A stretch of DNA of 64,000 nt from Candidatus Rifleibacteriota bacterium (GTDB lineage: Bacteria > Muiribacteriota > Ozemobacteria > Ozemobacterales > Ozemobacteraceae): positions 1 to 64,000 of the forward strand of contig JADFXM010000013.1 of the NCBI GenBank assembly GCA_015233565.1, read 5' to 3'. Position numbers and translations under genes: made by a program. Numbering within the stretch: position 1 is the first letter of the stretch; each line of letters opens with the position of its first letter. The notes below the pieces were generated by a model, which was given only the letters and a program-made list of their open reading frames with translations, was not told where the DNA came from and did no database searches. Shown one piece after another: positions 5,134 through 22,624 of the stretch.

Positions 5134-5206
5134 TTTTTAAACGGGCTTTGTACTATCTAAAAAAATCCACATTTCCCGCAAAACCAGCAAAGAGCTACAC
5201 TGACGA

Positions 5207-5236
5207 AAAATACCCTTAGAGGCGCCAACTAGTCAA
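5207..5236 (-). promoter_or_regulatory. Possible sigma-70 promoter for the kinase-cyclase pair
   Basis: On the minus strand TTGACT and TATTTT are separated by 18 bases, about 75 bases upstream of the kinase start. The -35 match is good and the -10 match is moderate. Confidence 0.3.
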
Positions 5237-5297
5237 GCAGCTGTTAAATTACCTACATGGAGTCATCAAAAGAAAAACGCTATAGGTTTTGTCAGCT

Positions 5298-6620
5298 TTA
5301 AGGCTTCTCCAAAATTCCGGAAAGAGTCCACTGCCTCGCTTGGGTGATTTTCACTTTTACAAATTCTCCAATCAGGTCAGGAGTCCCCATGAAGTTTATG
5401 GAGCGACCACTTCTGTCTTTCCCGACATGTTGTCCTTTTAATTGTTTGGAGGTCCCCTCAACAAGAACTTCAAAAATTTGTCCGGGAAAAAGAGAACTTT
5501 TTTCAAGGGAAATTTTATGTTGAAGAGCAATAAGCCTTGCTAAACGCTCCTTTTTAACCTCTATGGGAAGATTTTCGGACATTTTTTCCGCGGGAGTCCC
5601 CTGGCGCGGAGAAAAATAATACATAAAGGCCGAGTCAAAACGAATTTCATCAACAAGATTCAATGTTTCCTCAAATTCTTCTTCAGTTTCGGAGGGAAAA
5701 CCACAAATGATATCTGTTGTAACAGTTGCATCAGGAAAAAACCTTCTAATGGTCTTTATCAAATCGATATACTGCTCTCGCTTATAACCACGATTCATCA
5801 ATTTCAAAATTCTGTTTGAACCTGCTTGGAGGGGAAGATGAAAAGTTTTGCATACTTTATCAAGCCTGGCAATTCTTTCCAATATTGAATTAGAAAAATC
5901 TCTTGGATGAGAAGTCAGAAATCTTATCCATTTCAGGTTGTCAATATTATTTAATTCTTCAAGAAGTAAGGCAAATGCGTTATCAATTCCAAAGTCACGG
6001 CCAAATGCAATTACATTTTGCCCAAGAAGTGTGATTTCCTTAACACCTGTTGGTACCAAACTTTTCACAAAATTCACGATTTCCGGGATTGGTCGCGAAA
6101 TTTCTGGACCTCTTACTTTGGGGACTATGCAATATGTACAAAAGTTGGTACAACCTCTGATAATATTCACAAACGCTGAAAAGGGACGTTCGAGAATAAT
6201 CCCGTCGGGTTGTTCCCCGGAAAAGTTCCCGATTTCTGCGAATTCTCCAATGGCTTTTTTTTGATTCTCTATCTGTTGCAATAAAATCGGGAGATTTTCA
6301 ATGTCATTAGGCCCAAACAGGAGATCAACAAAAGGGAATTTATTCAAAAGTTTTTTCTGGTGTTCTTGTACAAGACATCCGCAGAGTCCGATTATCAGAT
6401 GCTTCTTTTTTTCTTTCAAGTTTCTCAGGGAGGCAACTCTTCCAAAGAGTCTCTCTTCAGCATGATCCCTGACACAACAGGTATTAAAAAGTATCAGATC
6501 GGCTTCTTCCTGGTTGTTTGTCTGTGAATAACCAAGCGAACTCAAAATTCCTTTGATTCGCTGGCCATCAGCCAAATTCATTTGACAGCCAAATGTGATT
6601 AGAAGAAATTTTTGTAGCAT
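5298..6620 (-). CDS. miaB: tRNA-2-methylthio-N6-dimethylallyladenosine synthase MiaB
   Basis: The 440-residue protein has the three parts of MiaB: an N-terminal UPF0004 domain with cluster cysteines (TFGCQMN, NTCCVRDHAEE, GLCGCLVQE), a radical-SAM core with the CxxxCxxC motif in GCTNFCTYCIVP, and a C-terminal TRAM domain (GQIFEVLVEG through to the end) for tRNA binding. It methylthiolates i6A37 in tRNAs that read UNN codons. Length and order match bacterial MiaB and not the related MtaB or RimO, since the NIIRGCTNFCTYC and DLLFGPNDI signatures are MiaB-like. It follows the three pilin-like genes with a gap of only 23 bases and is probably the last gene of that operon. The start codon directly precedes the conserved first strand. 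Confidence 0.96.
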   Translation of the reverse strand: MLQKFLLITFGCQMNLADGQRIKGILSSLGYSQTNNQEEADLILFNTCCVRDHAEERLFGRVASLRNLKEKKKHLIIGLCGCLVQEHQKKLLNKFPFVDLLFGPNDIENLPILLQQIENQKKAIGEFAEIGNFSGEQPDGIILERPFSAFVNIIRGCTNFCTYCIVPKVRGPEISRPIPEIVNFVKSLVPTGVKEITLLGQNVIAFGRDFGIDNAFALLLEELNNIDNLKWIRFLTSHPRDFSNSILERIARLDKVCKTFHLPLQAGSNRILKLMNRGYKREQYIDLIKTIRRFFPDATVTTDIICGFPSETEEEFEETLNLVDEIRFDSAFMYYFSPRQGTPAEKMSENLPIEVKKERLARLIALQHKISLEKSSLFPGQIFEVLVEGTSKQLKGQHVGKDRSGRSINFMGTPDLIGEFVKVKITQARQWTLSGILEKP

Positions 6621-6643: not shown

Positions 6644-7426
6644 TCAATCGCCCGGAAGTGCTTCAGCACCAAGGAGGCCCACTCCTACATTTGGAGAGAA
6701 ATTCATCGAATTTTCTTTCGCGACTTTGGTGTCTTTTGGCCATCGGCATTTAATAGAGACCTTGATTGGTTCAGGATCTTTAGCTGGAGGAAGATTGGTG
6801 ACAGTTATTCTAACTTCTTCGACGTCTTCACAGAGGGGGACTTCACGTTCTTTGGAAGCGTCTAAAGAAAGAGAAGAAAAATTTCCCGACTGTGCATATT
6901 TTTGTGTGGGATTTGTGGAAAAAGAAAATGTCTTTGATCTTAGTACTAGCTTGCCAACTTTTATGGGTTGGCTGGTTGTTGGAATAAACACAAGATATGA
7001 TCGTGTAAGTATTCCAAATTTGTTTTGGCCTATCTTAACTGATTCTGCTTCACACATTACCCAGGTCATCAGTTTTTTCTGACTGGTCAAACTGCTGGCT
7101 TGTATTCCGTAGTCCCCGCCGGTGATTTGGTCTGGTAAAATTTTTACAAAGAATTTTTCATACGGCTTGGAAGGGTCGGAAGACCCTATCGGGTCATAAA
7201 TTGCATCGTCAAGAAGAGTTGTGGGATAAGATGTACTTTTCAGTTGATTGTTGACAAGATTAATTGTATTCCTGAGTTGCGTGGTAATTCCGTTTATCCA
7301 TTGGGCTTTGTTGGCTGTTTTCGACCCTCCAATGAAGAGCTCGTAAGCGTAATAAACGAATATTGCAAGTACCAGGCAGGCCATCATTAATTCGATTAAT
7401 GTAAACGCACCCTTTTTTGGCTTCAC
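6644..7426 (-). CDS. Type IV prepilin-like protein (pseudopilin)
   Basis: A 260-residue protein starting with a short basic leader and the prepilin signature KKGAFTLIELMMACLVLA. The glutamate at +5 of the cleavable hydrophobic helix and the GxFTLIE core are the class III signal recognised by prepilin peptidase PilD. The rest is a globular domain without repeats that I cannot place; it is larger than major pilins and fits a minor pilin or GspJ-like pseudopilin. Its start overlaps the stop of the upstream PilX/GspK-like gene by 4 bases, which implies translational coupling. Assembly ATPase, platform protein and secretin genes are not in this window. Confidence 0.85.
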   Translation of the reverse strand: MKPKKGAFTLIELMMACLVLAIFVYYAYELFIGGSKTANKAQWINGITTQLRNTINLVNNQLKSTSYPTTLLDDAIYDPIGSSDPSKPYEKFFVKILPDQITGGDYGIQASSLTSQKKLMTWVMCEAESVKIGQNKFGILTRSYLVFIPTTSQPIKVGKLVLRSKTFSFSTNPTQKYAQSGNFSSLSLDASKEREVPLCEDVEEVRITVTNLPPAKDPEPIKVSIKCRWPKDTKVAKENSMNFSPNVGVGLLGAEALPGD

Positions 7427-8322
7427 AGAGCTCCCCTTCGTGTGATCTTTTGAGTTCTGGTCATGACTTCAGTGTATTTTTTTCCTTGAAAATCAGTTAT
7501 TGTCCCGACTACTTTGATCTCTATGGCTTCTTCGTTATACCTTCTAAGGTCTTTCAAAGAGCCGACCTTAATTTCTTCAACTGAGTATGTCATCGTGTAA
7601 GGATAACTTCTAAGTTGGTTGTTTGCAGTAATATCATAGTCTTTAATGCTCTGCAGGTTAAGGTCTTTGTCCATGACCAACCCACTTTGTACGATTGGGC
7701 CGTCAAAATTACCGGTACTTATGCTACGGGCTTTGGTGTTTGTACAATCGCGAATGAAATATTTCAAAAATTTATCAGGTTTGATGGTGGAATAACCAGG
7801 CAGTTTTTTGATGTCGGGCAAAGTATATTTTTGCGAAGTAGGCGAATTTACAACGATGCCGGAATCAAGAAATCTGAATTCAGGGGTGAAGTAATTTCCA
7901 ATTCGTACAAAAACATCAGGACGGTCATCAAATTGGATGTAAAAAAACTTGGGTTGAAGCTTGAGATCTAGTTCCGGAGCAGGTTTAATTCTTACAAATA
8001 AATTAGGAACCTGCGCATCAGCTTTAAAAGCAACTTCGTTGTTGACCTGGGATGGATATTCAGTAAAATCAAAAAGTGGATTTTTTCCTTGTGAAAACTC
8101 TACAGCATCATACAGTTCTGTTGGGAAGAGTTTTGCTTTCAACAAAAGATGCTGAAGAGCCGCCCTGGCTGCAAAAACAGCCTGTTGGTGTTGCAAGCTG
8201 ACTCTATTCTGCTGGGCAACATTTTTATGAGTTGCCATCATGGAAAAAATCATTAACATGAGTACCAAAGTAAAAAATAACGCAACAACTATTGCGATTC
8301 CGGTCCTCTTTTTTATATTCAT
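7423..8322 (-). CDS. PilX/GspK-like membrane protein of the pilin cluster
   Basis: The 299-residue protein has a basic N-terminus followed by one long hydrophobic helix (GIAIVVALFFTLVLMLMIF, residues about 8-28) and then a helical stretch rich in Gln/Ala (QHQQAVFAARAALQHLL). This is the layout of PilX and GspK family proteins, which begin RGxALVVAL and join the tip of a type IV pilus or type II secretion pseudopilus. It lacks the usual glutamate at +5, as GspK also does. Gene order (pilin, PilX/GspK-like, pilin) matches minor-pilin operons. The assignment to a subfamily is inference; a BLAST-level comparison was not possible. Confidence 0.62.
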   Translation of the reverse strand: MNIKKRTGIAIVVALFFTLVLMLMIFSMMATHKNVAQQNRVSLQHQQAVFAARAALQHLLLKAKLFPTELYDAVEFSQGKNPLFDFTEYPSQVNNEVAFKADAQVPNLFVRIKPAPELDLKLQPKFFYIQFDDRPDVFVRIGNYFTPEFRFLDSGIVVNSPTSQKYTLPDIKKLPGYSTIKPDKFLKYFIRDCTNTKARSISTGNFDGPIVQSGLVMDKDLNLQSIKDYDITANNQLRSYPYTMTYSVEEIKVGSLKDLRRYNEEAIEIKVVGTITDFQGKKYTEVMTRTQKITRRGAL

Positions 8323-8351
8323 AATTTTCTCCCCGGTATCCAGTTAAATCT

Positions 8352-9239
8352 TTATCTCGATAGATCGGCTTTTAGTGTCTGGAGGTGGATCCGCTGGATG
8401 TTCCCCTTATTGGTTCTTGGCTGGTTGTAGTATCCCACTTCCAGGTTCCATTGTACTTGAATAACGAGGCGTTTCATTGTACAAAATGCGACTTTTGGAT
8501 CATTTGAGTAATTAACTTTTTCGGTGGCCATTTTTTGAACATATCTGACAGTTTTTGGAGTGACAAAATCAGATTCACTATAAATGGTGTTTGCTGGAAG
8601 GGCCAAACCTGAAGGGAGATCTACTTCTGTTTTTAGCGAAGGGTTTGCTCCAATCTCGGGCGCGTACTTTTGTGCCCAGGAAGGGTTTTGTAGTTTATTT
8701 GGGTTAACGCAAAACGAGAACGATAAATCATCTGGCAAGGATGGAAATTCTGTGTTGATATCCCGCTTTTCCGCAGCATTTAAAGCCGTTTTGTCGTAGA
8801 CATCTTCAATTCGAAGTGATACTAGATAGCTTATACCACGAGGGTCGGCAATGATTCCTTCGCAAGGGAAGCCATAGGGAGTGGAAGCAGTGCCATCGAG
8901 GTTAAACAGCATTTTTGCCATTCTCCCAGCCCAATTGGTGTCAATACCCTGTTTTTGATAAATGGGTAAACGGCCGATATCGTCAGTGCGAAGAAATCCA
9001 ACGGGACTTCCCTCGCGCAAAGCTTCAAAAGGAACAGTGTCCAAAACTATTCCAAGGATTTCAGCTGCTTTGGTAATTGCAAATGATTGGGAGGCTGTGG
9101 AATCTGTATCTTGAGTTCCTTTATGGATAAAAGTAAACAAAGGAATCATTGCCACCGCCATAATTACAAGGGCGATAACAATTTCCAGAAGTCCTAGTCC
9201 GCGTTTTATTATCTGTTTTTGCAGAAACGTTTTATTCAT
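8352..9239 (-). CDS. Type IV prepilin-like protein, first gene of the pilin cluster
   Basis: The N-terminus holds the prepilin motif KRGLGLLEIVIALVIMAVAM: cleavage after RG would leave a mature protein with glutamate at +5 and a long hydrophobic helix. I start it at ATG 9239 (MNKTFLQKQ), because GGGGAA lies about 7 bases upstream; the longer ORF-track start at 9266 adds nine residues of no clear role. The remaining 250 residues form an unrecognised globular domain. It leads a four-gene transcription unit with the PilX/GspK-like gene, a second pilin-like gene and miaB. A GspI/PilV-type role is plausible. Confidence 0.8.
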   Translation of the reverse strand: MNKTFLQKQIIKRGLGLLEIVIALVIMAVAMIPLFTFIHKGTQDTDSTASQSFAITKAAEILGIVLDTVPFEALREGSPVGFLRTDDIGRLPIYQKQGIDTNWAGRMAKMLFNLDGTASTPYGFPCEGIIADPRGISYLVSLRIEDVYDKTALNAAEKRDINTEFPSLPDDLSFSFCVNPNKLQNPSWAQKYAPEIGANPSLKTEVDLPSGLALPANTIYSESDFVTPKTVRYVQKMATEKVNYSNDPKVAFCTMKRLVIQVQWNLEVGYYNQPRTNKGNIQRIHLQTLKADLSR

Positions 9240-9346
9240 CCACGGTTCCCCAATTACATTGTTCAAACCCCAATTGAAAAGTATTGTTCAAAGAGTTTAA
9301 AATTCAGGCATAAGAAAACAAACTTTTCAGAAGACTCTCTATTTAA

Positions 9347-9355
9347 AGTATAGCA
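9347..9355 (-). promoter_or_regulatory. Possible extended -10 promoter for the pilin-miaB operon
   Basis: On the minus strand the sequence TGCTATACT fits an extended -10 element (TGn-TATAAT with one mismatch). There is no good -35 at the usual distance. It lies about 108 bases upstream of the first pilin gene. Confidence 0.3.
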
Positions 9356-9383
9356 GAAATCCAATCAAAGGTGTCGGCTCAAT

Positions 9384-9410
9384 AAAAAGCTTCTCATATG
9401 CATGAGAAAG
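9384..9410 (-). terminator. Intrinsic terminator of the PIN-PhoH gene
   Basis: Read on the minus strand, TTCTCAT and ATGAGAA form a 7-bp stem with a 4-base loop, followed by GCTTTTTATT. It begins about ten bases after the stop codon of the PhoH-like gene. Confidence 0.65.
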
Positions 9411-9419
9411 GGCATAAAC

Positions 9420-10724
9420 TTACAACAAGACTGAAGCAAGAGCTGACAAATCTGATCTTTCGGATTTGTTAAGAATGATATGCCCGAAAATTTCATTGTC
9501 CTTAAACTTTTCAATAACGAAATTCAATCCGTTAGAGGAACTATCAAGGTAAGGATTGTCAATTTGATAAGGATCGCCGGTTAATACTACCTTTGTTCCT
9601 TCCCCTGCGCGGCTGATAATTGTCTTTACCTCATGTGGAGTAAGGTTTTGCGCTTCGTCAACTATCAAGTATTGTTTTGGGATCGATCTTCCGCGGATAT
9701 ATGTAATTGCTTCAATTTGTACTTTCTGTGATTCAAGCAGGAATTTCATTTTTTTATCGACGTCTTCTGAGTTGTTGTAAATTTTATCCATTACAAATTC
9801 AAGATTGTCAAAGATGGGTTGCATCCAATGACTCAATTTTTCATCTTTTGAGCCTGGAAGGTAGCCGATGTCCTTTCCAAGGGGCATGATTGGGCGACTG
9901 ACAAGAAGTTTTCGATAGACATGCTCATCAATAGTTTTTTGAAGACCACATGCAAGCGCAAGAAGAGTTTTACCGGTTCCGGCTCTTCCGACTAAAGTCA
10001 CCAGTTGAATTTCATTGCAACAAAGCAGTTCAGTTGCAAACTTTTGTTGCAAATTGGCTGGTTCAACGCCCCATGGCCTCATTTGTTGGTGATACAAGGG
10101 GAGCAGTTTCTTCGTTTTTCCACAAAATTTTGCGAGCGCTGTTTTGTTTTCATTTTCTTCAGCTTTCAACAGCGCAAATTCATTTTTTAACAAATCCCCT
10201 TTGGTCCATTCAAGACCCTTTTCATTTATGAAAATATCGATCTGCCGAGCTGGCAAAACTATCTCCCGCCAACCGGAATAAAGTTCATCAATGTCAACTT
10301 TGTTGGTCATGAAATCCTGGGTGGGAACACCCAAAGCATCAGCTTTGATGCGGGTGTTTATGTCTTTACTAATGTAGAAAACGTTTTTCCCTTGTTTTTT
10401 AAGGTATAAAGCGCAGGCAATAATGCGATTGTCGACTTTGTCCTTGTCAAAACCATATGGAATTTCCATTTCGACGTCAATAAGAACCCGAAGAAGACCA
10501 CCGTTGGAAAGCGGAACACCATCATTCAAACGTCCTTTTTCCCTGAGGGCATCCAGTTCCCGGGATACGGAGCGGGCTTCCCGGCCTCTTTCATCGTTGA
10601 AACCTTTGAAACGATCAAGCTCTTCAATTACTCCCAAAGGGATTACAACCTCGTTATCCTGAAATGAAAATAACGATTGGTGGCTATGCAGCAGAACATT
10701 TGTATCAAGAACGAACGTTTTCAT
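9420..10724 (-). CDS. PIN domain - PhoH ATPase fusion protein
   Basis: The 434-residue protein joins a PIN ribonuclease domain (residues about 1-140, opening KTFVLDTNVLLH with the first catalytic aspartate, later DNRIIACALYL and SKDINTRIKAD) to a PhoH-type P-loop NTPase (about 200-434, Walker A VGRAGTGKTLLAL, Walker B YLIVDEAQNLTPHE). Proteins of this form, related to YlaK and PhoH2, unwind and cleave RNA in an ATP-dependent way. It is single-copy here, with its own promoter and terminator. The sequence appears complete and the start coincides with the first strand of the PIN fold. The exact RNA target is not known. Confidence 0.93.
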   Translation of the reverse strand: MKTFVLDTNVLLHSHQSLFSFQDNEVVIPLGVIEELDRFKGFNDERGREARSVSRELDALREKGRLNDGVPLSNGGLLRVLIDVEMEIPYGFDKDKVDNRIIACALYLKKQGKNVFYISKDINTRIKADALGVPTQDFMTNKVDIDELYSGWREIVLPARQIDIFINEKGLEWTKGDLLKNEFALLKAEENENKTALAKFCGKTKKLLPLYHQQMRPWGVEPANLQQKFATELLCCNEIQLVTLVGRAGTGKTLLALACGLQKTIDEHVYRKLLVSRPIMPLGKDIGYLPGSKDEKLSHWMQPIFDNLEFVMDKIYNNSEDVDKKMKFLLESQKVQIEAITYIRGRSIPKQYLIVDEAQNLTPHEVKTIISRAGEGTKVVLTGDPYQIDNPYLDSSSNGLNFVIEKFKDNEIFGHIILNKSERSDLSALASVLL

Positions 10725-10863: not shown

Positions 10864-10885
10864 TGACCAAAGAAATCTTTGGTCA
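10864..10885. terminator. Hairpin downstream of the BtaA-like gene (first of two)
   Basis: TGACCAAAG and CTTTGGTCA form a perfect 9-bp stem with an AAAT loop. On the minus strand it is followed by AAAAGTGTTTT. It lies downstream of the BtaA-like gene and upstream of the PhoH promoter. Confidence 0.4.
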
Positions 10886-10897
10886 TCAGACAATCAT

Positions 10898-10932
10898 GCC
10901 GACGCAATCGTGTAGAATGCGTCGGCTTTTTT
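10898..10932 (+). terminator. Hairpin with T6 tract (second of two)
   Basis: GCCGACGCA and TGCGTCGGC form a 9-bp GC-rich stem, followed by TTTTTT on the plus strand. As an intrinsic terminator it points to the right, although both flanking genes are read to the left, so either it blocks antisense transcription into the BtaA-like gene, ends a small plus-strand RNA, or serves as an RNA 3' end for the left-going operon. Confidence 0.5.
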
Positions 10933-10957: not shown

Positions 10958-12061
10958 TTATTTTTTCAATTGGAACACATGGAAACTTTCATAAATGAAA
11001 GCTCGGTCCTGGTCAAAAAGACGTTGAGCCAATTCCGGTTCGGATTGCATTATTTCCAAGTTTGCCGCATCAAGCTGTCTTGGACGAGCGAGAGTGTAAC
11101 GGTAAGCAAATCTAGCCTTAGGTTTGGAAATGGCAATTGCTTCACGAATTACATTGTTGAAAGTTTCGTTATCCATCCATTCAAAGATATTAGACAAATT
11201 CAGTTTGTCAAATGAAGCCTTTCCATATCTTTCAACGACATGTGTAAGAATTCCATAAATACTTTCAAGTCTATCGATATTCTTTTTCAAAAGCGGATAA
11301 TTTTTTTCCAGCAGATAAGGAGACATGCTCTCAGGTTTATAATGCACACCAAGGAGCATCAGCGACATGAAGAAGTTGTCGGGATTGTACAAGTTTTTCA
11401 TTGCTTTATCCAGTTTTCTGTTCAGGTTTTCTGAAAGATCAGGGTCTTCAACTTGAGCAAAGGAATGCGCTCCTTTGACCAGGCTTAAAACGAAGCGGTT
11501 CAGAAGAACACGGTTCAGAAATCTCCAGCGTTTTTTGTTTAAATCGCTGTAAGCTCGCCATTGAGACTTAATATCAGGTTGATGGAAAAGGTTTTCAATT
11601 TTGGAAGGATCATACATTTTTTGCAATATCCATCGATAGAAGGCGAAAAACTTCTCCACCTTCCCGCTCATGAAAACACCTTTTCCAATTATTTCTTCGT
11701 TTTCATCCCAAAAAGCACGCGCGTCAGAGGGTAGTTTGTCCCGGAATTTGTGAAAAAGGCTGATCCGTTTTTCGGGTGAATATTTTGATGGCTTTCCTAA
11801 AAATTCGACTCCCAGAACGCCCAAAAAATCATCATAATCGAAAGTGGAAATAGCAGCTTTTTTGAATTCAAGTAAAGCACACTGTGCCGGGTTAAAATCC
11901 ATGGAAACAACTCTTCCTGGATTTTCCAATAATAGGCATAGAGAATTACACCCTCCGGAGGTAACCGAAAGAACAGATTCTCCTGGTTTAACCTGGAGTG
12001 AGAGGCGGTTTAGTTCAGGATCTTCCCAAACATTACTGTAAACAATTGCTGGTTTTTTCAT
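10958..12061 (-). CDS. BtaA-like (DUF3419) 3-amino-3-carboxypropyl transferase
   Basis: The 367-residue protein fits the DUF3419/BtaA family. It opens with YSNVWEDPELNRLSL, then has a Rossmann SAM-binding part: VLSVTSGGCNSLCLL (glycine loop) and VVSMDFNPAQCALLEFK (acidic residue after strand 2). Known BtaA moves the 3-amino-3-carboxypropyl group of SAM to diacylglycerol, making diacylglyceryl-homoserine; a separate methyltransferase, BtaB, then makes the betaine lipid. No BtaB is seen here. The gene is the last of a tight operon (15-base gap) with a dikinase and a UbiA prenyltransferase, so the acceptor may be a different lipid. The annotation by fold is firm; the substrate is inference. Confidence 0.85.
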   Translation of the reverse strand: MKKPAIVYSNVWEDPELNRLSLQVKPGESVLSVTSGGCNSLCLLLENPGRVVSMDFNPAQCALLEFKKAAISTFDYDDFLGVLGVEFLGKPSKYSPEKRISLFHKFRDKLPSDARAFWDENEEIIGKGVFMSGKVEKFFAFYRWILQKMYDPSKIENLFHQPDIKSQWRAYSDLNKKRWRFLNRVLLNRFVLSLVKGAHSFAQVEDPDLSENLNRKLDKAMKNLYNPDNFFMSLMLLGVHYKPESMSPYLLEKNYPLLKKNIDRLESIYGILTHVVERYGKASFDKLNLSNIFEWMDNETFNNVIREAIAISKPKARFAYRYTLARPRQLDAANLEIMQSEPELAQRLFDQDRAFIYESFHVFQLKK

Positions 12062-12076
12062 TCGCTTCCTCCATCA

Positions 12077-14848
12077 CTATTTAGAAATCTCATCGTTTCC
12101 AAGAATTCGTACGACTCCGGTGGTTCCATCCATTTCAACCCAATCGCCGGTTTTGAGTCTTTTTGTGACATCCGGGATGCCGACGATCGCAGGTAAACCA
12201 AGTTCGCGTGCTACTATTACTGAATGTGAAAGCATGCTTCCGCGTTCGATCAGTAATCCCTTCGCAGACGGGAATAAAGGGACCCAGCCTGGATCGGTAC
12301 GAGCTGCAACTAAGATTTCACCATTCAGAGTCATGTCATCGCCGGGTTTCAAAATTACTTTCACCTGGCCTTTTATTTTTCCTGAGCATCCGCCTGTTCC
12401 CTTGAGGATTTTTGGATCATCGCTGGCAACTGCAGCAATTGCGCTTTTGGAAAGGTCATTCAGATAAGTGATTCCACGAGCTTCAATTCTGTCGGGAAGT
12501 TCATCGGAAGCTCGGTATTGGTCAAATTCAGCACTTCGAATTGCGGCCATCTCTTTTAATTTCTGACTGGGAGCACATCCAACGACGTAAGAAATTATTT
12601 CTTCCTGAGTAAGATAGAAAACATCATCAACTTTGTTCAAGACTCCTCGTTCAACAAACCTGCGACCGATTCCCATGAACATTCGTCTCGCCAGACCGTA
12701 CATTTTTGTTCGGGCAAAGCGCTGGAATTCCCGGAATGCCATAGCTTTTTTGGTATAGTCCGCAACCAGTTGGAGGATGAAATTCTTTGGAATGCACCAT
12801 AAGATTTTTTGCCCTTCCAACATGGCAGAAACTTTTCGTTCAGCCGCTTCCCTGATTTGCCTTTCGCGAGTTCCCGTATTTTCGGTAGGAGGAATTGGAG
12901 CGGAAAGGTAATTTTTCAAAATTTGGAAAATGTATTCAGGTTTTTCGTTGAGAGAAGGTTCTTCCAGCTTCAATTCATTCATTGTACGATAGCCGAACTT
13001 GGTAAGATAATCGCGAATTCTTTCAACAAGTTCTTTTTCGTGCTGATCGGTGCTCGTCGGTTTTCTGATGAAGCGTTCAACCAAAGCTGGACAATCATTC
13101 TTCTTCACTGTTTCCAATAGTCCGGGTTTGGAAACAATAAAGCGCCCGATCTCCTGAAGAGTTCTAAGCGGCAAAGTGCTTTCAACATTCCCTTGTCCTG
13201 CAACCAGATCGTTCTGAAGAGAGCCGTCGGTATCAAGTTGCCAGTTCTTCATAAGTTCTCTGAGCATTCCATAAAAAATCATGGCCATGAAATCATTGAC
13301 GATTGGGGCTTTCCATTCTCGTAATACTGTGTTGATCAATTCAATGTAAACTTCGACAATTTTGTGAGCGGGAGCGCTATCAAAGTCAAAATCTTTGTAT
13401 TTATCATACATTCTTTGGTATTTTCCCATGAAGTCCTTGACTTTGGACTCAATGGTGAAAAAATTCCAGGCCAAGCTGGCACCTGCAATTGCAAGTCGAG
13501 GGAGCTCCCAGAAGTATTTTTCGAAGAATCCCAACTCTTTTTTGCGGCCACCTTCGAAATCAAATTTTACTTTTACGCCCATCATTCCTTCCATGAATCT
13601 GGAATTATATTTATATCCCGGAAGGACGGAAACGAGTTTGTACCAATTCTTTAAATTGTAATATACTCGGCCATTTAAAAGTCCAAGCATATTTGCAAAT
13701 GCGAAATCGTTTTCCTGAATAATATGTTCAGGAACTCTCAATACCTGGCAGAATTGTACATACACCATGTGGTAGGCATTGAGGGCAAATGAAAATGTAA
13801 GAGGAGTTGTAACTCCTGAATAGCTTTCGACGATGTTGGAGTTGTCCCAGATTGTTACGTAGTCACGCTCAGGAGGGGTTGGGGATTCAATCGTTGTAAT
13901 GGGACGTGCCTGGAGGATGTAGAGAATATTGTTTGAGTCAATTGTCCATTCAATATCAAGCGGAGCCCCGCCGTATCCATTTTCAATTTTGTGACATCGT
14001 TCGGCAATTTGTCCAACTTGTTGATCAGATAAACAGGCATGTTTTTTTGCTTCATCCGGAATCGGTTCAATCGTGGTTCCTCGGCCATTAACTCGGTCAA
14101 AAACCATTTTTTCCTGTTTTTCGACTATTAATCTTGAATCAATCGGATATCCTTCACGCTTGATGCAGACATAACCGTCGGCATCGACTCCGCCTGAAAC
14201 CAAGCCTTCTCCAAGACCTGGTACAGCGTTGATGGATATTTCGTCATTGTATCTGGTAATCGGGTTTACCGTAAAAGTAACGCCAGAAGCTGTTCCATCA
14301 ATCATTTTCTGAATGACTACGGCCATTGAAATCCCAGCCTGGGGAAGTTTTCTCATGTGCCTATAGGACACTGCGCGGTCAGAGTAAATTGAAGACCAGC
14401 ATTTTTTAATTGCGGACATGATTTCTTCTCTTCCGCGTTGGAAAAGATGGGAGTCGAGCATTCCAGCATATGAAAACTCTTTGGAATCCTCGCCAAGAGC
14501 ACTTGATCTAACAGCTACAAAAGAGTTTTCAGGAAAGATGCTGAGTTTTTGACCGATCTCTTCGGATAAAATTGAAGGAAATTGTTTGGTACAAATGAAA
14601 TCCCGGAATTTTGCGCTGGAATCAACTATTGCAGCGGGAGAGGAAAAATCCAGTTTGTTTAATTCCGATTTGAATTCCTCAGAAAATGGATAAATAAAGT
14701 CATCAAATATTTTTGAGGTTAAAACGATAAAAGGCGGTACTGTTGCACCCAAAGAACACAATTTCAGCAGATTTCCACCCTTTCCTCCTGCGAAGGAGAT
14801 GGATTCTGCATCGGGATTATCTGTATGTGCAATGATTCTTAAAGTCAT
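12077..14848 (-). CDS. PEP-synthase/rifampin-phosphotransferase-like dikinase
   Basis: A 923-residue protein with an N-terminal PPDK-type ATP-grasp domain (residues about 15-330; FAGGKGGNLLKLCSLGA, AVRSSALGEDS, IEWTIDSNNILYILQARP), a long middle region (about 340-790) and a C-terminal swivelling phosphohistidine domain (about 820-915; GSMLSHSVIVARELGLPAIVG, with the His in LSHS). The TIM-barrel PEP/pyruvate domain that ends true PEP synthase and PPDK is missing. The order ATP-grasp - acceptor region - His domain is the one of rifampin phosphotransferase, in which ATP phosphorylates the His and then a bound acceptor, releasing AMP and phosphate. The middle part presumably binds the unknown acceptor. 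It lies between UbiA and BtaA-like genes with gaps of 32 and 15 bases. Confidence 0.85.
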   Translation of the reverse strand: MTLRIIAHTDNPDAESISFAGGKGGNLLKLCSLGATVPPFIVLTSKIFDDFIYPFSEEFKSELNKLDFSSPAAIVDSSAKFRDFICTKQFPSILSEEIGQKLSIFPENSFVAVRSSALGEDSKEFSYAGMLDSHLFQRGREEIMSAIKKCWSSIYSDRAVSYRHMRKLPQAGISMAVVIQKMIDGTASGVTFTVNPITRYNDEISINAVPGLGEGLVSGGVDADGYVCIKREGYPIDSRLIVEKQEKMVFDRVNGRGTTIEPIPDEAKKHACLSDQQVGQIAERCHKIENGYGGAPLDIEWTIDSNNILYILQARPITTIESPTPPERDYVTIWDNSNIVESYSGVTTPLTFSFALNAYHMVYVQFCQVLRVPEHIIQENDFAFANMLGLLNGRVYYNLKNWYKLVSVLPGYKYNSRFMEGMMGVKVKFDFEGGRKKELGFFEKYFWELPRLAIAGASLAWNFFTIESKVKDFMGKYQRMYDKYKDFDFDSAPAHKIVEVYIELINTVLREWKAPIVNDFMAMIFYGMLRELMKNWQLDTDGSLQNDLVAGQGNVESTLPLRTLQEIGRFIVSKPGLLETVKKNDCPALVERFIRKPTSTDQHEKELVERIRDYLTKFGYRTMNELKLEEPSLNEKPEYIFQILKNYLSAPIPPTENTGTRERQIREAAERKVSAMLEGQKILWCIPKNFILQLVADYTKKAMAFREFQRFARTKMYGLARRMFMGIGRRFVERGVLNKVDDVFYLTQEEIISYVVGCAPSQKLKEMAAIRSAEFDQYRASDELPDRIEARGITYLNDLSKSAIAAVASDDPKILKGTGGCSGKIKGQVKVILKPGDDMTLNGEILVAARTDPGWVPLFPSAKGLLIERGSMLSHSVIVARELGLPAIVGIPDVTKRLKTGDWVEMDGTTGVVRILGNDEISK

Positions 14849-14880
14849 TCTTAATTCCCCTTTTTATGGTTATTTAACAA

Positions 14881-15789
14881 TTATTTCCAAAAACCGGCCA
14901 ACACCGCAATGTGGTATGCCAGGAGAAAAAACGTTACTGTCCCTCTGTAAATTTTTGCTTGGCTTGTTTTGGGGTGGGCAGAATACCAAATCCCTGTTCC
15001 CACTACGAGCAAAGCAAGAATTGAAACTGAGAGCGATAGTTGTTTGGGAAGTTCCCCAAACTTTAAAGAGGCGGAGTAAAAACAAAGTGCAATACCTATG
15101 GCCAAATTTACGAAAAGAAGAAGAAATGCCCCGATTGGGTAAAGTCGAATCGAGTAAGAATCCACTCCATCTCGTTCCTCTTCTGACCCAAAGGTTTTTC
15201 TTCCAAATTCAAAGACGTTAAAAATAAACCAATTGCTTAACGCAAAAAAATAAAAGAACTTGTTCAAATCAAAGGGATAGACTCCACAAACTGCAACCCC
15301 GGTTGTCAAACCTAAAAGAGAAGCCGAAAAAGTGTGGCTGATCGCGTAGGATTCAAGTTTGGGGCGAAGCCAATCGCCGATAAAAAATTCCATTCTCATA
15401 AGAAGGGTGAAGGCCAGCAACATTGCATAAACGGTGAAAGTAGCTCGCCCCAGCAGGGCAGCAATTGTAATTTCGCTCAAAATAACCATGAAAGTCATAA
15501 AGCCGAATTCATCAAGAGAAATCAATCCGCGGGCAAGTGGGCGGTGTGGGTTATGCTGAGTGTCAAACGCATAATCCTTAACTTCGTCGAAAAGGCGCAT
15601 GTGCAGGAAAACCAGCCAGACAAGGGCAAAGCTTCCCAAGAGCCGCAATGGCCCACTTGCCAGGAGAAAAGATTTCTCTGAGGCGGCAAAAGCATTAGCG
15701 CCAAAAAACGCGGCAATTGTCAGTGTTGTACCGACTGGTTCAAACCGTTCCTTCAAAAACATAAACCATCTTGAAAAAAAGTTGCTCAT
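14881..15789 (-). CDS. UbiA-family prenyltransferase
   Basis: A 302-residue polytopic membrane protein, with roughly eight hydrophobic segments. The first Asp-rich motif reads LFDEVKDYAFDTQHNPHRPLA, the DxxxDxxxD plus R/H signature of UbiA enzymes that binds Mg-prenyl diphosphate. A second acidic site lies in SEEERDGVDSYS. I start it at ATG 15789 (MSNFFSRW) because GGTGA lies seven bases before it; the ORF-track start adds 16 residues. UbiA members attach isoprenoid chains to aromatic or glycerol-phosphate acceptors; here the aromatic partner is unknown. As first gene of the operon with the dikinase and BtaA-like genes it suggests a lipid or quinone-like product. Which acceptor it uses cannot be decided from sequence alone. 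Confidence 0.87.
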   Translation of the reverse strand: MSNFFSRWFMFLKERFEPVGTTLTIAAFFGANAFAASEKSFLLASGPLRLLGSFALVWLVFLHMRLFDEVKDYAFDTQHNPHRPLARGLISLDEFGFMTFMVILSEITIAALLGRATFTVYAMLLAFTLLMRMEFFIGDWLRPKLESYAISHTFSASLLGLTTGVAVCGVYPFDLNKFFYFFALSNWFIFNVFEFGRKTFGSEEERDGVDSYSIRLYPIGAFLLLFVNLAIGIALCFYSASLKFGELPKQLSLSVSILALLVVGTGIWYSAHPKTSQAKIYRGTVTFFLLAYHIAVLAGFWK

Positions 15790-15820: not shown

Positions 15821-15857
15821 AAAAGCCCCCCCTTCAATATTCAAAAAGAAAGGGGGG
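15821..15857 (-). terminator. GC-rich hairpin before the UbiA operon
   Basis: CCCCCCTT and AAGGGGGG form an 8-bp stem with a 15-base loop; on the minus strand it is followed by CTTTTGAC. It could end transcription from the right or act as an attenuator for the UbiA operon. Confidence 0.4.
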
Positions 15858-15872
15858 AAATATTTTAATACT

Positions 15873-15929
15873 TCACTTCCCCTCTTTTTTCAAGAGAGTA
15901 TTGCGAAGCTTACTTAGTTCCTTTTCCAT
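15873..15929 (-). CDS. Possible 18-residue leader peptide
   Basis: A very good ribosome binding site (GGGAGGAG, about five bases before ATG) precedes the short frame MEKELSKLRNTLLKKEGK and a TGA. It sits directly upstream of the GC-rich hairpin. It may be a leader ORF or a translated remnant. The longer ORF-track version (15873-16124, 83 residues) has no convincing start. No functional evidence is visible. Confidence 0.22.
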   Translation of the reverse strand: MEKELSKLRNTLLKKEGK

Positions 15930-18850: not shown

Positions 18851-20179
18851 TTATCGTGCCAGAATCAATCCATGCAATGCACGCACGGCTTTAGGAATAT
18901 CTTCATTCTTAATTAATACTCCGATGTTGATCTCCGAAGCTCCTTTCGTGATCGCTTTCGCATTGATTCCTACTTCTCCCAAACTTGTGAAAATCTTTCC
19001 AATTGCATCTGCCCTTCCCTTAAGTTCATCTCCAACTATGCAAACTATTGCCATCGCTGGATAACTGGATACTGGGGCAATTCTTTTAAGTGCTTCGGTT
19101 GCTTCCATTTTTTGTTCATCAGAAAGGTCAGACTGGGTTATAAGGGAAATTCCCGCCTCACTTGTTGTGACCATGTGCGCTACTATCCCAAGCTTCTTTA
19201 AAGCTGCAAGCGCAGAATTAAGAACATCAGGAACTGAATGGAGTCGTTGAGATGAAAGATGAAACAGTGTCACATCTTCTTTATATGCCACCGATTTGGC
19301 AATGGACTTTGTGATTACCGGTTCTGCGAAAATCGAGGTGCCAAGGTCGTTCTCTTTAAATGCATTTACAACGCGAACTGGAATTCCTTTTTTAATTGCA
19401 GGAATTAGCGTCGAAGGGTGGAGCACTTCAGCGCCGAAATAAGCAAGTTCGCTGGCTTCATCGAATGATAATTCAGGAATATTGCGTGCGCGTGGATCGA
19501 CGCTTGGATCAGCGGTCATCACGCCGTCAACATTCTTCCAAATCACGACTTCACTTGCTCCGATTCCTGCAGCAATAATGGTGGCGGAAAAATCACTCCC
19601 GCTACGGCCTAGGGTTGTAATTTCTCCGCGGCTATTCTTTCCCAAAAAACCGGTGACGACTGGAATTCCCTCAATTTTTGCGAAAGCTTCCCCCAGCCCC
19701 GTTTCAATTCCATGGAGGGGGGAGGCTGACCCGAAGTGGTCATCAGTGATCATTCCGACATCATATGAATTTATTGCAACTGAGTTTCGTCCTCTTGTAA
19801 CAAGTGCACCGGATATGATGCGTGAAGCAAGTCTTTCCCCAAAAGAGATAATGTGATCGAGAGTTCTTGGGGTGAGTTCTTTCAAGAGCCAAACACCGTG
19901 TAAGAGCGTTTCAAGCTTGACCAACAAAGGTTCGATCAAGCCCGAAGGAACAATCAAGGCATCAATCAGTTCCATGTGATATTTTCTGATATCGGAAATG
20001 TCTGTATTACCCTCCAACGCAGAGCGGGCGGCCCTTAGCAAACGGTCAGTGGTGTCTCCATGAGCGGAAACTACGACTACCACTCCCTTGTCTGCAGCAG
20101 CTTCGATTATGTCCAAACATCTTTGAATACGATCATAATTAGCGATGGATTGCCCACCGAATTTATAGACGCTTGCCAT
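18851..20179 (-). CDS. lysC: Aspartate kinase
   Basis: The 442-residue protein starts ASVYKFGGQSIANYDRI, with the KFGG-x-S ATP/aspartate motif. Other kinase landmarks are SFGERLASRIIS, TTLGRSGSDFSATIIAA and DPSVDPRARNIPELSFDEA; two ACT domains fill about 305-442. It makes aspartyl-4-phosphate, the first step to lysine, threonine and, here, homocysteine. It follows the DUF39 gene by five bases and closes a four-gene operon. Placing it with the sulfurtransferase genes ties supply of aspartate semialdehyde to homocysteine. The next enzyme, aspartate semialdehyde dehydrogenase, is not in the window. Feedback control through the ACT domains is likely. Confidence 0.95.
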   Translation of the reverse strand: MASVYKFGGQSIANYDRIQRCLDIIEAAADKGVVVVVSAHGDTTDRLLRAARSALEGNTDISDIRKYHMELIDALIVPSGLIEPLLVKLETLLHGVWLLKELTPRTLDHIISFGERLASRIISGALVTRGRNSVAINSYDVGMITDDHFGSASPLHGIETGLGEAFAKIEGIPVVTGFLGKNSRGEITTLGRSGSDFSATIIAAGIGASEVVIWKNVDGVMTADPSVDPRARNIPELSFDEASELAYFGAEVLHPSTLIPAIKKGIPVRVVNAFKENDLGTSIFAEPVITKSIAKSVAYKEDVTLFHLSSQRLHSVPDVLNSALAALKKLGIVAHMVTTSEAGISLITQSDLSDEQKMEATEALKRIAPVSSYPAMAIVCIVGDELKGRADAIGKIFTSLGEVGINAKAITKGASEINIGVLIKNEDIPKAVRALHGLILAR

Positions 20180-20184
20180 ATTTT

Positions 20185-21411
20185 TTACCTCACCGGTCGT
20201 TTTTTGTGATCGTCTACTGTACGTTCCACAAGCGGATGGAAGCCAAGTCCAGAATCGACGCCCGGCAATTTTTCGACAGGGGCCGACAATAACATTTTTC
20301 CTTCTGTAATCCAGATTTTCAGCGAATCTGCGATTTCACGGGCCATGGCGATACTTGATAATGCTGAAGTTTCGATAATCTTTCCGAGTATTTGAACTTT
20401 TCCACTTCGCAGTTCAGCATAACTTACATATGCGATAGGTTCTCCCTTTAACTCTGGGTAGTCATCACTGTAGTCCCAGACTGGAGCCATTATGTCGGCA
20501 TCAGAAATGGCGCAGAACTGTGCCATTTCTTCATCCAGAATCGGAATTGGAATGCCGATTCCAACGGCAAGTGAAGGGCCGTAACCGGTCATTGAGACTC
20601 CACGAACATATTTGGGATTCATTCCTTTCATGTCTCCCATAACAGCGAGAGTTCCTGATCCACCTTTTGGAATTCCTTTGTCAGTACGAGGACCGAGTGG
20701 GGAGTGCTGAGTTCCCTGAAAGATTACATAGCCAACCCCGCCTCCCAGAAAAATTCGAGTTCCAATTCCTATTGTACGATAATAAGGATCGTTCATAAGT
20801 GGAGAAAGTTGCCCGGCGGAACAAAAATTTGCGTTTCCCATATTGGGACGCAATATTCCCATATATGTATAAATTGGTTTTTTGGAATGAAGATTCACTG
20901 CAACATTATAGTTTTGATAGGCATTACGCGGATTTAATAACGTTGCCGAATTTAAATCCTTAATATTGATTTTTGTCTTCAATTCTTTTCGAGGATAACA
21001 GTGAGTTCCGTATGAAGTTGCGGAAAAAACTACATCTTTTCCGGCTATCAAATCTTCTATTACGTGCCCACCGCCGTATGAAAATTTGCCGGGGAATACT
21101 TTATTTGCAGGGTCATCTTCCGGTATTTCAGTTGCCCCAATATAAAGATCGACTGCAGCTATTCCGCAGTATGCCGGGACATCGTTTAACTTTGCGTGTT
21201 TATAGTTCATTCGGGGTTTTGTGTGACCTGTGTTGAGAAGGGCTCCGGATGAGCACATTGGGCCAAACGTTGCAGTGGTAACAACATCAACGGCTTCGGC
21301 AGCTTTTTTTGCTCCCTTTTCCTTTACGATGTGGATAATTTCTTCAGCAGTAACTACGACAGCTTTTCCAGTGCGAATTTTCTCGTTTATCTCTTCATAA
21401 GTTTTTGCCAT
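20185..21411 (-). CDS. L-aspartate semialdehyde sulfurtransferase (DUF39, HcyBio family)
   Basis: A 408-residue protein matching the DUF39/COG1900 family (MA1821 in Methanosarcina acetivorans), which inserts sulfide into aspartate semialdehyde to give homocysteine. Diagnostic stretches are TYEEINEKIRTGKAVVVTAEE, TTATFGPMCSSGALLN and SYGTHCYPRKE, with conserved cysteines. I take ATG 21411 (MAKTYEEI) as start, because AGAGG lies seven bases upstream and the longer ORF-track start would overlap the previous gene. The usual C-terminal CBS pair of some family members is missing; this is the short form that works with a separate NIL-ferredoxin, which is the next gene upstream. Context: UPF0280 and NIL-ferredoxin before it, aspartate kinase after it. 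Confidence 0.93.
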   Translation of the reverse strand: MAKTYEEINEKIRTGKAVVVTAEEIIHIVKEKGAKKAAEAVDVVTTATFGPMCSSGALLNTGHTKPRMNYKHAKLNDVPAYCGIAAVDLYIGATEIPEDDPANKVFPGKFSYGGGHVIEDLIAGKDVVFSATSYGTHCYPRKELKTKINIKDLNSATLLNPRNAYQNYNVAVNLHSKKPIYTYMGILRPNMGNANFCSAGQLSPLMNDPYYRTIGIGTRIFLGGGVGYVIFQGTQHSPLGPRTDKGIPKGGSGTLAVMGDMKGMNPKYVRGVSMTGYGPSLAVGIGIPIPILDEEMAQFCAISDADIMAPVWDYSDDYPELKGEPIAYVSYAELRSGKVQILGKIIETSALSSIAMAREIADSLKIWITEGKMLLSAPVEKLPGVDSGLGFHPLVERTVDDHKKRPVR

Positions 21412-21433
21412 TTTTTTCCTCTTTCGATTTTCT

Positions 21434-21850
21434 CTAGGCCAGATGATCAGTAATGGATTCCAGTGCACCAAAAGGGCAAGCGGGAATGCATAATTCGCAT
21501 GCTATGCATTTTTCATGTGCAAATACAACTTTACCAATATTCTTATCAACTGATAAGGCCTTGGGAAAGCAATGTGCAACACAGGCACTGCAATGAGTAC
21601 ATTTGTCTTCGTCCCAGATTAAATTCTTTGCAGGCATAATAAGCTTGACGCCAATTTCTTCAAGATATTTGAAGGAATTTTTTACATTTTCCGGTTCTCC
21701 ATCAATTTGGATGAACATTGTACCATCTGCTTCCTGCCGAATACTGGCCTGCAGAATATTTACTTCCACGTCAAAATTCCTGATGACCCCTGACAAAATT
21801 GGTGTGCTTACCAAATCTGCCTTAAAGTGAAGGATTACATTTTTCTTCAT
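21434..21850 (-). CDS. NIL domain - 4Fe-4S ferredoxin, partner of DUF39
   Basis: The 138-residue protein has an N-terminal NIL domain (residues about 1-75) and two 4Fe-4S cluster motifs, CTHCSACVAHCFP and CIACELCIPACPF. It corresponds to MA1822 of M. acetivorans, which supplies electrons or sulfur to the DUF39 sulfurtransferase in homocysteine synthesis. ATG 21850 (MKKNVILHF) is chosen because AGGGAG lies nine bases before it and the NIL domain starts there. The gap to the DUF39 start is 22 bases. A role in oxygen-sensitive metabolism fits an anaerobe. Confidence 0.93.
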   Translation of the reverse strand: MKKNVILHFKADLVSTPILSGVIRNFDVEVNILQASIRQEADGTMFIQIDGEPENVKNSFKYLEEIGVKLIMPAKNLIWDEDKCTHCSACVAHCFPKALSVDKNIGKVVFAHEKCIACELCIPACPFGALESITDHLA

Positions 21851-21901
21851 TATTATTTCTCCCTGCTTGATTCCATCAAAACATTCTTCCACCAGGTTGT
21901 T

Positions 21902-22624
21902 TCAAACAACCTCTAAATCGCCCCATATGCCAATCTTATCACCAATAGTAACAATAATTCCTTTAACCCCACCATGTTCTTTTGCATTTTGGATGACGGT
22001 TTCAACGTCTTCCTTACATTGAACCTGGTTGCCAAAGCAGGTGGCTGCCGCATCTGCATCAATGGCGTTATCGGCAATAATACAGACGGCATCTGCTTTT
22101 CCGAAAGAAAGCGAATGTCCGACTGTTCCAGCCGAGGTGCAGATTCCAAAAGATTCGCCTGGTTTTCCGGTACGAAAATTTATTTTTCCGGAAAATGGAG
22201 ATTCCTCGCCTGCATAAAGCGTAAAAACCACCGGTCTTCCCATTCTGACAAAAATGTCACCGCCGTTTTCGATGATTAAATCGCCAAATCGCTCAACAAG
22301 TTTTTTGCCTGTGAGTTCCGCAACAGCACCTGCTACAGCCGCCATGGGGCCAACGTTAAATTTTCTTGCAGCAATGCACATTTTAGCAACTATTTCTGAG
22401 GCATCGGTCTTCGGAACATGTGGAACAAGAGTTGTTTTAAACTCAGGATCCATTTTAATATATGACTCAATATCATTTCTCAATCCGGTTAGAATCTCTT
22501 GCGTTTCATGGGTAATATCTTTTCGTGCCAGAAGAAACAAATCGCTTTCCCCTATCACGACTCGTTGGGCAAGAAAACCCTCCGCTTTCATCCACTCTCT
22601 GTAGGTACGTTCCTGATAACTCAT
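21902..22624 (-). CDS. UPF0280 family protein (COG2122, ApbE-like)
   Basis: The 240-residue protein fits UPF0280 (COG2122; MA1715 in M. acetivorans), a family distantly related to the FAD:protein FMN transferase ApbE. Visible parts are YQERTYREWM at the start, the Gly/Ala-rich MAAVAGAVAEL, and FGICTSAGTVGHSLSFGKADAV, typical of ApbE-like proteins. In archaea this gene joins DUF39 and NIL-ferredoxin in the homocysteine route and improves it, by an unproven mechanism. It is the first gene of the operon; the leader and a sigma-70 promoter lie upstream. Confidence 0.92.
   Translation of the reverse strand: MSYQERTYREWMKAEGFLAQRVVIGESDLFLLARKDITHETQEILTGLRNDIESYIKMDPEFKTTLVPHVPKTDASEIVAKMCIAARKFNVGPMAAVAGAVAELTGKKLVERFGDLIIENGGDIFVRMGRPVVFTLYAGEESPFSGKINFRTGKPGESFGICTSAGTVGHSLSFGKADAVCIIADNAIDADAAATCFGNQVQCKEDVETVIQNAKEHGGVKGIIVTIGDKIGIWGDLEVV

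Follow-up and report, generated by a model that had tools for sequence, protein, structure and literature searches.

The stretch analysed here, hereafter the window, comprises 64,000 nucleotides of contig JADFXM010000013.1 from a Candidatus Rifleibacteriota bacterium (assembly GCA_015233565.1). Its minus strand carries three closely spaced genes transcribed in the order UbiA-like, dikinase and DUF3419. The UbiA-like gene (15789-14881) encodes 302 aa counted from the ATG at 15789, a TTG at 15837 being another possible start; the dikinase gene (14848-12077) encodes 923 aa and the DUF3419 gene (12061-10958) 367 aa. A first reading of this DNA (the original prediction) described them as a UbiA prenyltransferase, a dikinase and a BtaA-like enzyme forming an operon for a candidate new lipid pathway, with intergenic gaps of 32 and 15 bases, and the open reading frame coordinates agree with this spacing.

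Our data demonstrate that the linkage of these genes is far beyond chance. Of the 14 loci returned by a search with the dikinase, two belong to Riflebacteria and most others to Bacteroidota; the order UbiA-dikinase-DUF3419 is the same in 12, one of the other two having no UbiA gene and one being truncated. Of 40 Riflebacteria genomes, 24 have DUF3419, 23 have the dikinase at no less than 33% identity, and 25 have a UbiA protein of this clade. DUF3419 and the dikinase overlap in 22 genomes (Fisher P 5e-8), and all 23 dikinase genomes have the UbiA clade (Fisher P 3e-9); these and the other P values and E-values given here count related genomes as independent. The three genes are usually adjacent in Riflebacteria and most overlapping genomes have them on one contig; in G029, G031 and G039 the dikinase and DUF3419 lie on separate contigs, at least partly at contig ends. 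Nine of 297 Bacteroidota genomes contain the UbiA clade, and they are precisely the nine in which DUF3419 is linked to the dikinase; the match holds without the centre genome (8/8, P=7.5e-16). A plasmid of the alphaproteobacterium Roseinatronobacter has the same operon gene order as Bacteroidota. Most loci come from metagenome-assembled genomes (MAGs), and the window's own 8.3-Mb genome has 8.5% contamination; a same-genus genome (G010) shows the same dikinase and DUF3419 neighbourhood, plus a resistance-nodulation-division (RND) gene. Because MAG labels may be wrong (L012 is labelled Akkermansia and another locus Chitinophaga pinensis), we claim no Verrucomicrobiota member. The original prediction had staked itself on linkage in other species, and the triad is conserved in Riflebacteria, Bacteroidota and the Roseinatronobacter plasmid, where co-occurrence and shared gene order mark it as a conserved functional unit.

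The proposal that these three genes are the pathway stands for its core, but the window shows only part of a larger system that includes an HMG-CoA reductase (HMGR), ligases, a kinase, an N-transferase and exporters, and is a reduced copy of it. The Bacteroidota operon reads HMGR, UbiA, dikinase, DUF3419, a CTP_transf_1-like membrane protein (21.5 bits, just under the cut-off of 24), a GNAT-like acyltransferase and an AMP-ligase. The last two genes sometimes sit upstream, Pfam detects the GNAT domain in some members but not others, and in L013 DUF3419 and GNAT are fused. The Riflebacteria set comprises a barrel-like protein, a fusion of AMP-ligase, acyl carrier protein (ACP) and HMGR, a formyltransferase-like protein, an AMP-ligase, UbiA, dikinase, an RND/MMPL exporter, DUF3419, a LolA-like protein and a second barrel-like protein. 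Each genome carries a different, overlapping part of this set, and in some UbiA and HMGR lie apart from dikinase-RND-DUF3419. The outer-membrane-barrel-like proteins are putative, assigned from a signal peptide and terminal Phe and not from a family match. Formation of an amine by the DUF3419 enzyme would fit the presence of an N-formyl or N-acyl transferase in the operon. Another Riflebacteria locus, L045 (G006:C27:67000-86482), holds a second, different cluster of OleA-like and OleC-like genes with an alpha/beta hydrolase and a 3beta-hydroxysteroid dehydrogenase (OleB/OleD-like), adjoining UbiA, phosphatidylserine decarboxylase, DUF3419, two dikinases and an aminotransferase fusion.

In the Riflebacteria fusion protein, an AMP-ligase domain is followed by an ACP (PF00550, 4e-6 in L069) and an HMGR domain (L069:4059-7190, L043:474-3503, L062:7834-10839 and 16 others). 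The ACP LDSLG motif is kept in 19/19 fusions (FDSLG in one). Alignment to the human enzyme places the catalytic Glu, Lys, Asp and His of HMGR, whose roles we take to be those of the human residues, in the partner reductase: equivalents of E559, D767 and H866 are present in 19/19 fusions and the DKK motif in 18/19, with one ambiguity, and the NADPH motif DAMGMNM reads DASGQNM. We know of no described system with this architecture. Carboxylic acid reductases (A-T-R) likewise join an AMP-ligase, an ACP with invariant Ser and a reductase in a single chain, whereas in the 19 Riflebacteria sequences compared the reductase is of the HMGR type and not a short-chain dehydrogenase/reductase. The fusion also occurs in genus g10 (G018-G021), which lacks the triad.

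This HMGR is not for isoprenoid-precursor supply, because HMG-CoA synthase exceeds the cut-off in 0/40 Riflebacteria genomes while IspG is present in 37/40, and because of the pattern of HMGR copies in Bacteroidota: in the hosts G041, G042, G048 and G051 IspG occurs together with just one HMGR, of the operon type, and those without IspG mostly have at least two (G050 departs from this with one, and G043 lacks HMGR). Mevalonate supply was thus ruled out as the function of the set. HMGR is accompanied by a kinase of one of three unrelated forms, either in the same protein, next to it or elsewhere in its operon. In L013 an HMGR fused to an APH/choline-kinase-like domain (3723-6029, minus strand) lies divergently upstream of the Bacteroidota operon, and in L076 HMGR adjoins a DAG-kinase-like (diacylglycerol kinase-like) gene. 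We infer that ligase, HMGR-type reductase and kinase would convert an acid to an alcohol and then to an alcohol phosphate.

The dikinase has a PPDK_N domain (263 bits) and a mobile domain of phosphoenolpyruvate (PEP) utilizers (85 bits), and no Pfam PEP/pyruvate TIM barrel anywhere in its 923 aa. Along 12077-14848 (minus strand) it encodes an ATP-grasp domain (residues 19-322), a central acceptor region and a swivelling phospho-His domain (residues 842-911). The codon of the catalytic His875 (12224-12226, minus strand) corresponds to H825 of the Listeria rifampin phosphotransferase. K23, R114, E300, Q313, R315 and H875 are invariant in 35/35 sequences, and K23, R114 and H875 align with K22, R117 and H825 of the solved Listeria enzyme, residues that presumably keep the functional roles they have there. 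Domain content and conserved phospho-His residues agree with the original description of an ATP-grasp and swivelling-His dikinase without barrel, and by these features the protein is assigned to the barrel-less PPDK-type enzymes. It has ATP-grasp and swivelling His domains, the missing barrel and the catalytic residues in common with rifampin phosphotransferase and the PigC/RedH ligases. However, it scores far under their curated cut-offs (325 bits against 999 for rifampin phosphotransferase, 347 against 1300 for PigC and 375 against 1350 for RedH), its central region is of low identity, and it has no rifamycin or prodiginine context. Its top NCBIfam model is NF004881 (826 bits, cut-off 883). 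The dikinase tree is compatible with co-inheritance; its branches are long, so little rests on it. A distant dikinase on a Streptomyces clavuligerus megaplasmid (L061) is clustered with an AfsA-like hotdog protein, an isoprenylcysteine carboxylmethyltransferase-like protein, a hypothetical protein and an oxidoreductase; its partner genes are different, and the cluster was set aside.

PigC and RedH work as ligases, so coupling instead of simple phosphorylation is possible for the dikinase. This leads to the strongest alternative to a lipid, which we consider unlikely, that the operon makes a small-molecule natural product such as a signal, pigment or defensive compound. The dikinase would couple two building blocks after phosphorylating an oxygen, and UbiA would only prenylate one of them. 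The bit scores of the dikinase against the RedH and PigC ligase models, the distant relationship of the AMP-ligases to olefin beta-lactone synthetases, the OleA/OleC-like genes adjoining the triad in L045, the AfsA-like gene beside the Streptomyces dikinase and the patchy distribution of the genes all speak for such a product. The distance of the dikinase from the curated cut-offs of PigC/RedH and rifampin phosphotransferase alike speaks against it, and the RND and LolA-like genes and the polyprenol-kinase-like protein fit a lipid better.

For the UbiA-like protein, PF01040 gives 16.3 bits, under the Pfam gathering cut-off of 34.2, and 27-44 bits for its relatives; because the score fell below the cut-off, the call was checked by structure. 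The top three PDB fold matches of an AlphaFold2 model (predicted local distance difference test score, pLDDT, 88.9) are the UbiA prenyltransferases 6m31, 7bpu and 4od4 (template modelling score 0.62-0.68). The best is an archaeal digeranylgeranylglyceryl phosphate (DGGGP) synthase, archaeal ether-lipid synthases being the closest group; a PDB sequence search with the protein gave nothing useful. The alignment of 21 UbiA-clade relatives has 14 invariant columns. In the first Asp motif, R65-xx-D68-E-x-K71-D72-xxx-D76 (15562-15597, minus strand), R65, D68, K71, D72 and D76 are invariant in the 21 sequences, from three phyla, and E69 is conserved in >90%, a pattern that fits the Mg/diphosphate site of UbiA enzymes. 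The usual second Asp motif, DxxxD, is not present in the protein, and a clade-specific motif, E194-x-G-R197-K198-x6-E205-xx-GV-x-x-Y212 (15154-15210, minus strand; E194, R197, K198, E205 and Y212 invariant), stands in its place. By its modelled fold the protein belongs to the UbiA superfamily, as a divergent clade with a variant motif. The identification as UbiA therefore holds for fold and first Asp motif but not for Pfam cut-off or second motif. Compared with DGGGP synthase and other UbiA prenyltransferases, it has the helical membrane fold and first Asp motif of the family, and differs in its ~15% identity, the ExGRKx6E motif and its sub-threshold Pfam score.

The same divergence raises a second alternative, in which the unit moved by the UbiA-type enzyme is phosphoribosyl or alkyl (a reduced fatty acid) and the product is a ribosyl or alkyl-ether lipid rather than an isoprenoid. 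The second motif is non-canonical and basic, the HMGR-like reductase and ligase would give an alcohol from an acid, kinases recur nearby, and a membrane phosphoribosyltransferase (8j8j) is also among the structural neighbours, at rank 16. Nevertheless, the protein retains its first Asp motif, and true prenyltransferases, headed by DGGGP synthase, give the closest structural matches; we regard this alternative as improbable, at about one chance in five.

The DUF3419 protein matches PF11899 far above the cut-off (203 bits, 1e-59). Fold searches with its AlphaFold2 model (pLDDT 88.0) gave weak SAM-methyltransferase-fold (S-adenosylmethionine) matches only, none with E <0.001, and a PDB sequence search gave nothing useful. 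In the SAM-binding signature S32..S35-x-G37-x-N39 ... D55-x-N57-P (11891-11968, minus strand), S35, G37, N39, D55 and N57 are common to the BtaB-linked and dikinase-linked groups, as are W12, E13 and D14. In contrast, the operon type has E136, S290 and E294 where BtaA has G, L and D, with no variation within either group among the compared rows. A 61-row tree places all 27 BtaB-linked BtaAs, alphaproteobacterial and Bacteroidota, in one clade (support 100/99) with all dikinase-linked proteins outside, and a smaller tree with long branches agrees. The BtaA-like identity thus stands at the level of the DUF3419 family and SAM signature but not of the subfamily, and the protein is predicted to be a BtaA-related 3-amino-3-carboxypropyl transferase of a clearly separate subfamily, which probably transfers the same group as BtaA to a different acceptor.

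The gene neighbours point the same way. The best 30 Bacteroidota DUF3419 loci include 23 with a BtaB-like methyltransferase and no such dikinase, and four with the dikinase and no BtaB; longer stretches yield further dikinase-linked cases, and none of the Bacteroidota loci inspected has both beside DUF3419. No BtaB lies beside the genes. BtaB-like matches occur in 10/40 Riflebacteria genomes, at 27-36% identity and on other contigs, and most DUF3419-positive Riflebacteria genomes have none. That BtaA makes ordinary diacylglyceryltrimethylhomoserine (DGTS) here, with the methyltransferase elsewhere and the other genes incidental, is therefore very improbable: the protein is of the BtaA family with its SAM-site residues, and a BtaB-like protein of 36% identity exists elsewhere in the window's own genome, but the tree, the mutually exclusive neighbours and the weak, scattered BtaB-like matches oppose it. 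With tree, neighbours and BtaB search in agreement, we rule out the ordinary betaine-lipid pathway, as the original prediction had argued from the missing BtaB. The operon resembles BtaA/BtaB DGTS synthesis (e.g. rhizobia) in its DUF3419 family, SAM signature and predicted transfer, and departs from it in subfamily, absence of BtaB, E136/S290/E294 and gene context. Rhizobial plasmids (L057, L082 and L083) carry a third kind of DUF3419 with neither BtaB nor dikinase, which in L057 adjoins CoF synthetase, an MBL-fold hydrolase and an NAD(P)-oxidoreductase; in S. meliloti CP090106 (L055) the BtaA frame is interrupted though BtaB directly follows. Least probable of all is a housekeeping PEP synthase for gluconeogenesis beside mevalonate-pathway and quinone genes, the name that NCBI-type annotation gives the dikinase, which is contradicted by the missing PEP/pyruvate barrel and opposed by the patchy distribution, the lack of HMG-CoA synthase and the fixed co-occurrence with DUF3419.

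The reading we favour, at somewhat less than an even chance, puts the triad at the centre of an operon devoted to making a modified amphiphilic lipid, probably of isoprenoid type, that is located in the outer membrane or beyond it. The data establish which families the genes belong to, that catalytic residues are conserved, that the genes co-occur in a shared order and with export genes, and that the set is distinct from BtaA and from the supply of isoprenoids; from these we infer substrates, step order and product. An AMP-ligase (in Riflebacteria fused to ACP and the HMGR-like reductase) would activate a carboxylic acid, and the thioester would be reduced to a primary alcohol. A kinase, by lineage CTP-dependent polyprenol-kinase-like, DAG-kinase-like or choline-kinase-like, and/or the dikinase would then phosphorylate or activate the alcohol, the dikinase passing phosphate from ATP through phospho-His to the acceptor with release of AMP and Pi. 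Within the membrane, the UbiA-type enzyme would link the acceptor to a chain, prenyl or similar, that is activated as a diphosphate, and the DUF3419 enzyme would transfer a 3-amino-3-carboxypropyl group from SAM. The new amine would be N-acylated (GNAT and AMP-ligase, Bacteroidota) or N-formylated (formyltransferase, Riflebacteria) rather than trimethylated by BtaB, and the product would be exported by the RND/MMPL, LolA-like and outer-membrane barrel proteins. The homoserine-bearing isoprenoid or glycerolipid of the original prediction is a plausible product, though homology reveals the chemistry only in part.

Several points weigh against this model. The UbiA donor may not be a prenyl diphosphate, since ExGRKx6E replaces the second Asp motif; this donor and the acceptor of the dikinase are its two weakest points. 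With the differences from BtaA at E136, S290 and E294, even the transferred group may be another one. The window copy has no adjacent exporter, and the ligase-ACP-HMGR fusion, the formyltransferase-like gene and one barrel are on another contig of its genome (C133, L062). HMGR is less tightly associated (P 0.003 and 0.009), some genomes having HMGR without the triad and others the triad without HMGR, and the kinase and amine-modifying genes differ between Riflebacteria and Bacteroidota.

The operon fails at least one defining feature of each of five known families or pathways: BtaA, PEP synthase, rifampin phosphotransferase, PigC/RedH and the mevalonate pathway. Aryl-polyene/dialkylresorcinol-type outer-membrane lipid clusters may offer a parallel in their combination of an AMP-ligase with an MMPL/RND exporter and a LolA-like protein; in contrast to them, the core operon has HMGR, UbiA, dikinase and DUF3419 and no ketosynthase genes. 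Plant phytol salvage to tocopherol (VTE5, VTE6, VTE2) also pairs a polyprenol-kinase-like CTP_transf_1 protein with a UbiA enzyme, whereas the operon has the dikinase and DUF3419, and a VTE6-like gene was not noticed, no search having been aimed at one. Anti-phage defence was ruled out, none of the three proteins having a PADLOC match. The original prediction knew of no described pathway with this combination, and in the literature searched, which did not extend to preprints and most subscription journals, no paper joins UbiA with DUF3419 or BtaA with a prenyltransferase, so that the novelty is provisional. The UbiA neighbourhoods described in PMC12419801 are other than this one.

The hairpins said to flank the operon are present on both sides but carry little weight, because terminator-like structures in the region are no more numerous than in shuffles (7 vs 6.2). 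Upstream, RNA folding gives stems at 15826-15857 and 15882-15898 (within 15826-15898, minus strand). Downstream, possible terminators span 10864-10926 (minus strand), with a terminator-like structure at 10885-10864 on the operon strand and a strong hairpin at ~10898-10926, which suits opposite-strand termination better because its T-run is on the plus strand. Directly downstream of the operon (6644-10724, minus strand) lie pseudopilin-type genes, of which one has an N-methylation motif, and a gene for a PIN-PhoH protein; in a same-genus genome (L036) DUF3419 is followed by homologues of the PIN-PhoH gene and of two others from this stretch. Upstream on the same strand, and separated from the operon by a TPR/beta-helix gene, 18851-22624 encodes an aspartokinase (AA_kinase and ACT), an HcyBio homocysteine-biosynthesis protein (503 bits), a NIL-domain 4Fe-4S ferredoxin and a 240-aa protein without Pfam match, UPF0280-like in appearance. 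These genes could be a methanogen-style homocysteine route, able to supply methionine and SAM, the donor of DUF3419.

A fixed gene set in at least three phyla with near-perfect co-occurrence marks a real pathway, and no described product was found for it. In its most specific form, which is tentative and somewhat unlikely to be right in every part, our model posits a previously undescribed class of bacterial outer-membrane lipid. An HMGR-type reductase working on an acid bound to ACP would help to make a prenyl or alkyl chain, a barrel-less dikinase would activate it, a divergent UbiA enzyme would join it and an N-acylated or N-formylated homoserine group derived from SAM would cap it, the operon having spread by transfer among Riflebacteria, Bacteroidota and Alphaproteobacteria. 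If true, it would give the DUF3419/BtaA fold a second use, outside betaine lipids, provide an acceptor for a dikinase without barrel whose only annotation is PEP synthase, and make an HMG-CoA-reductase domain the reductase of a ligase-ACP-reductase chain. It would also predict an outer-membrane lipid that could be searched for directly in cultured Bacteroidota and Roseinatronobacter.

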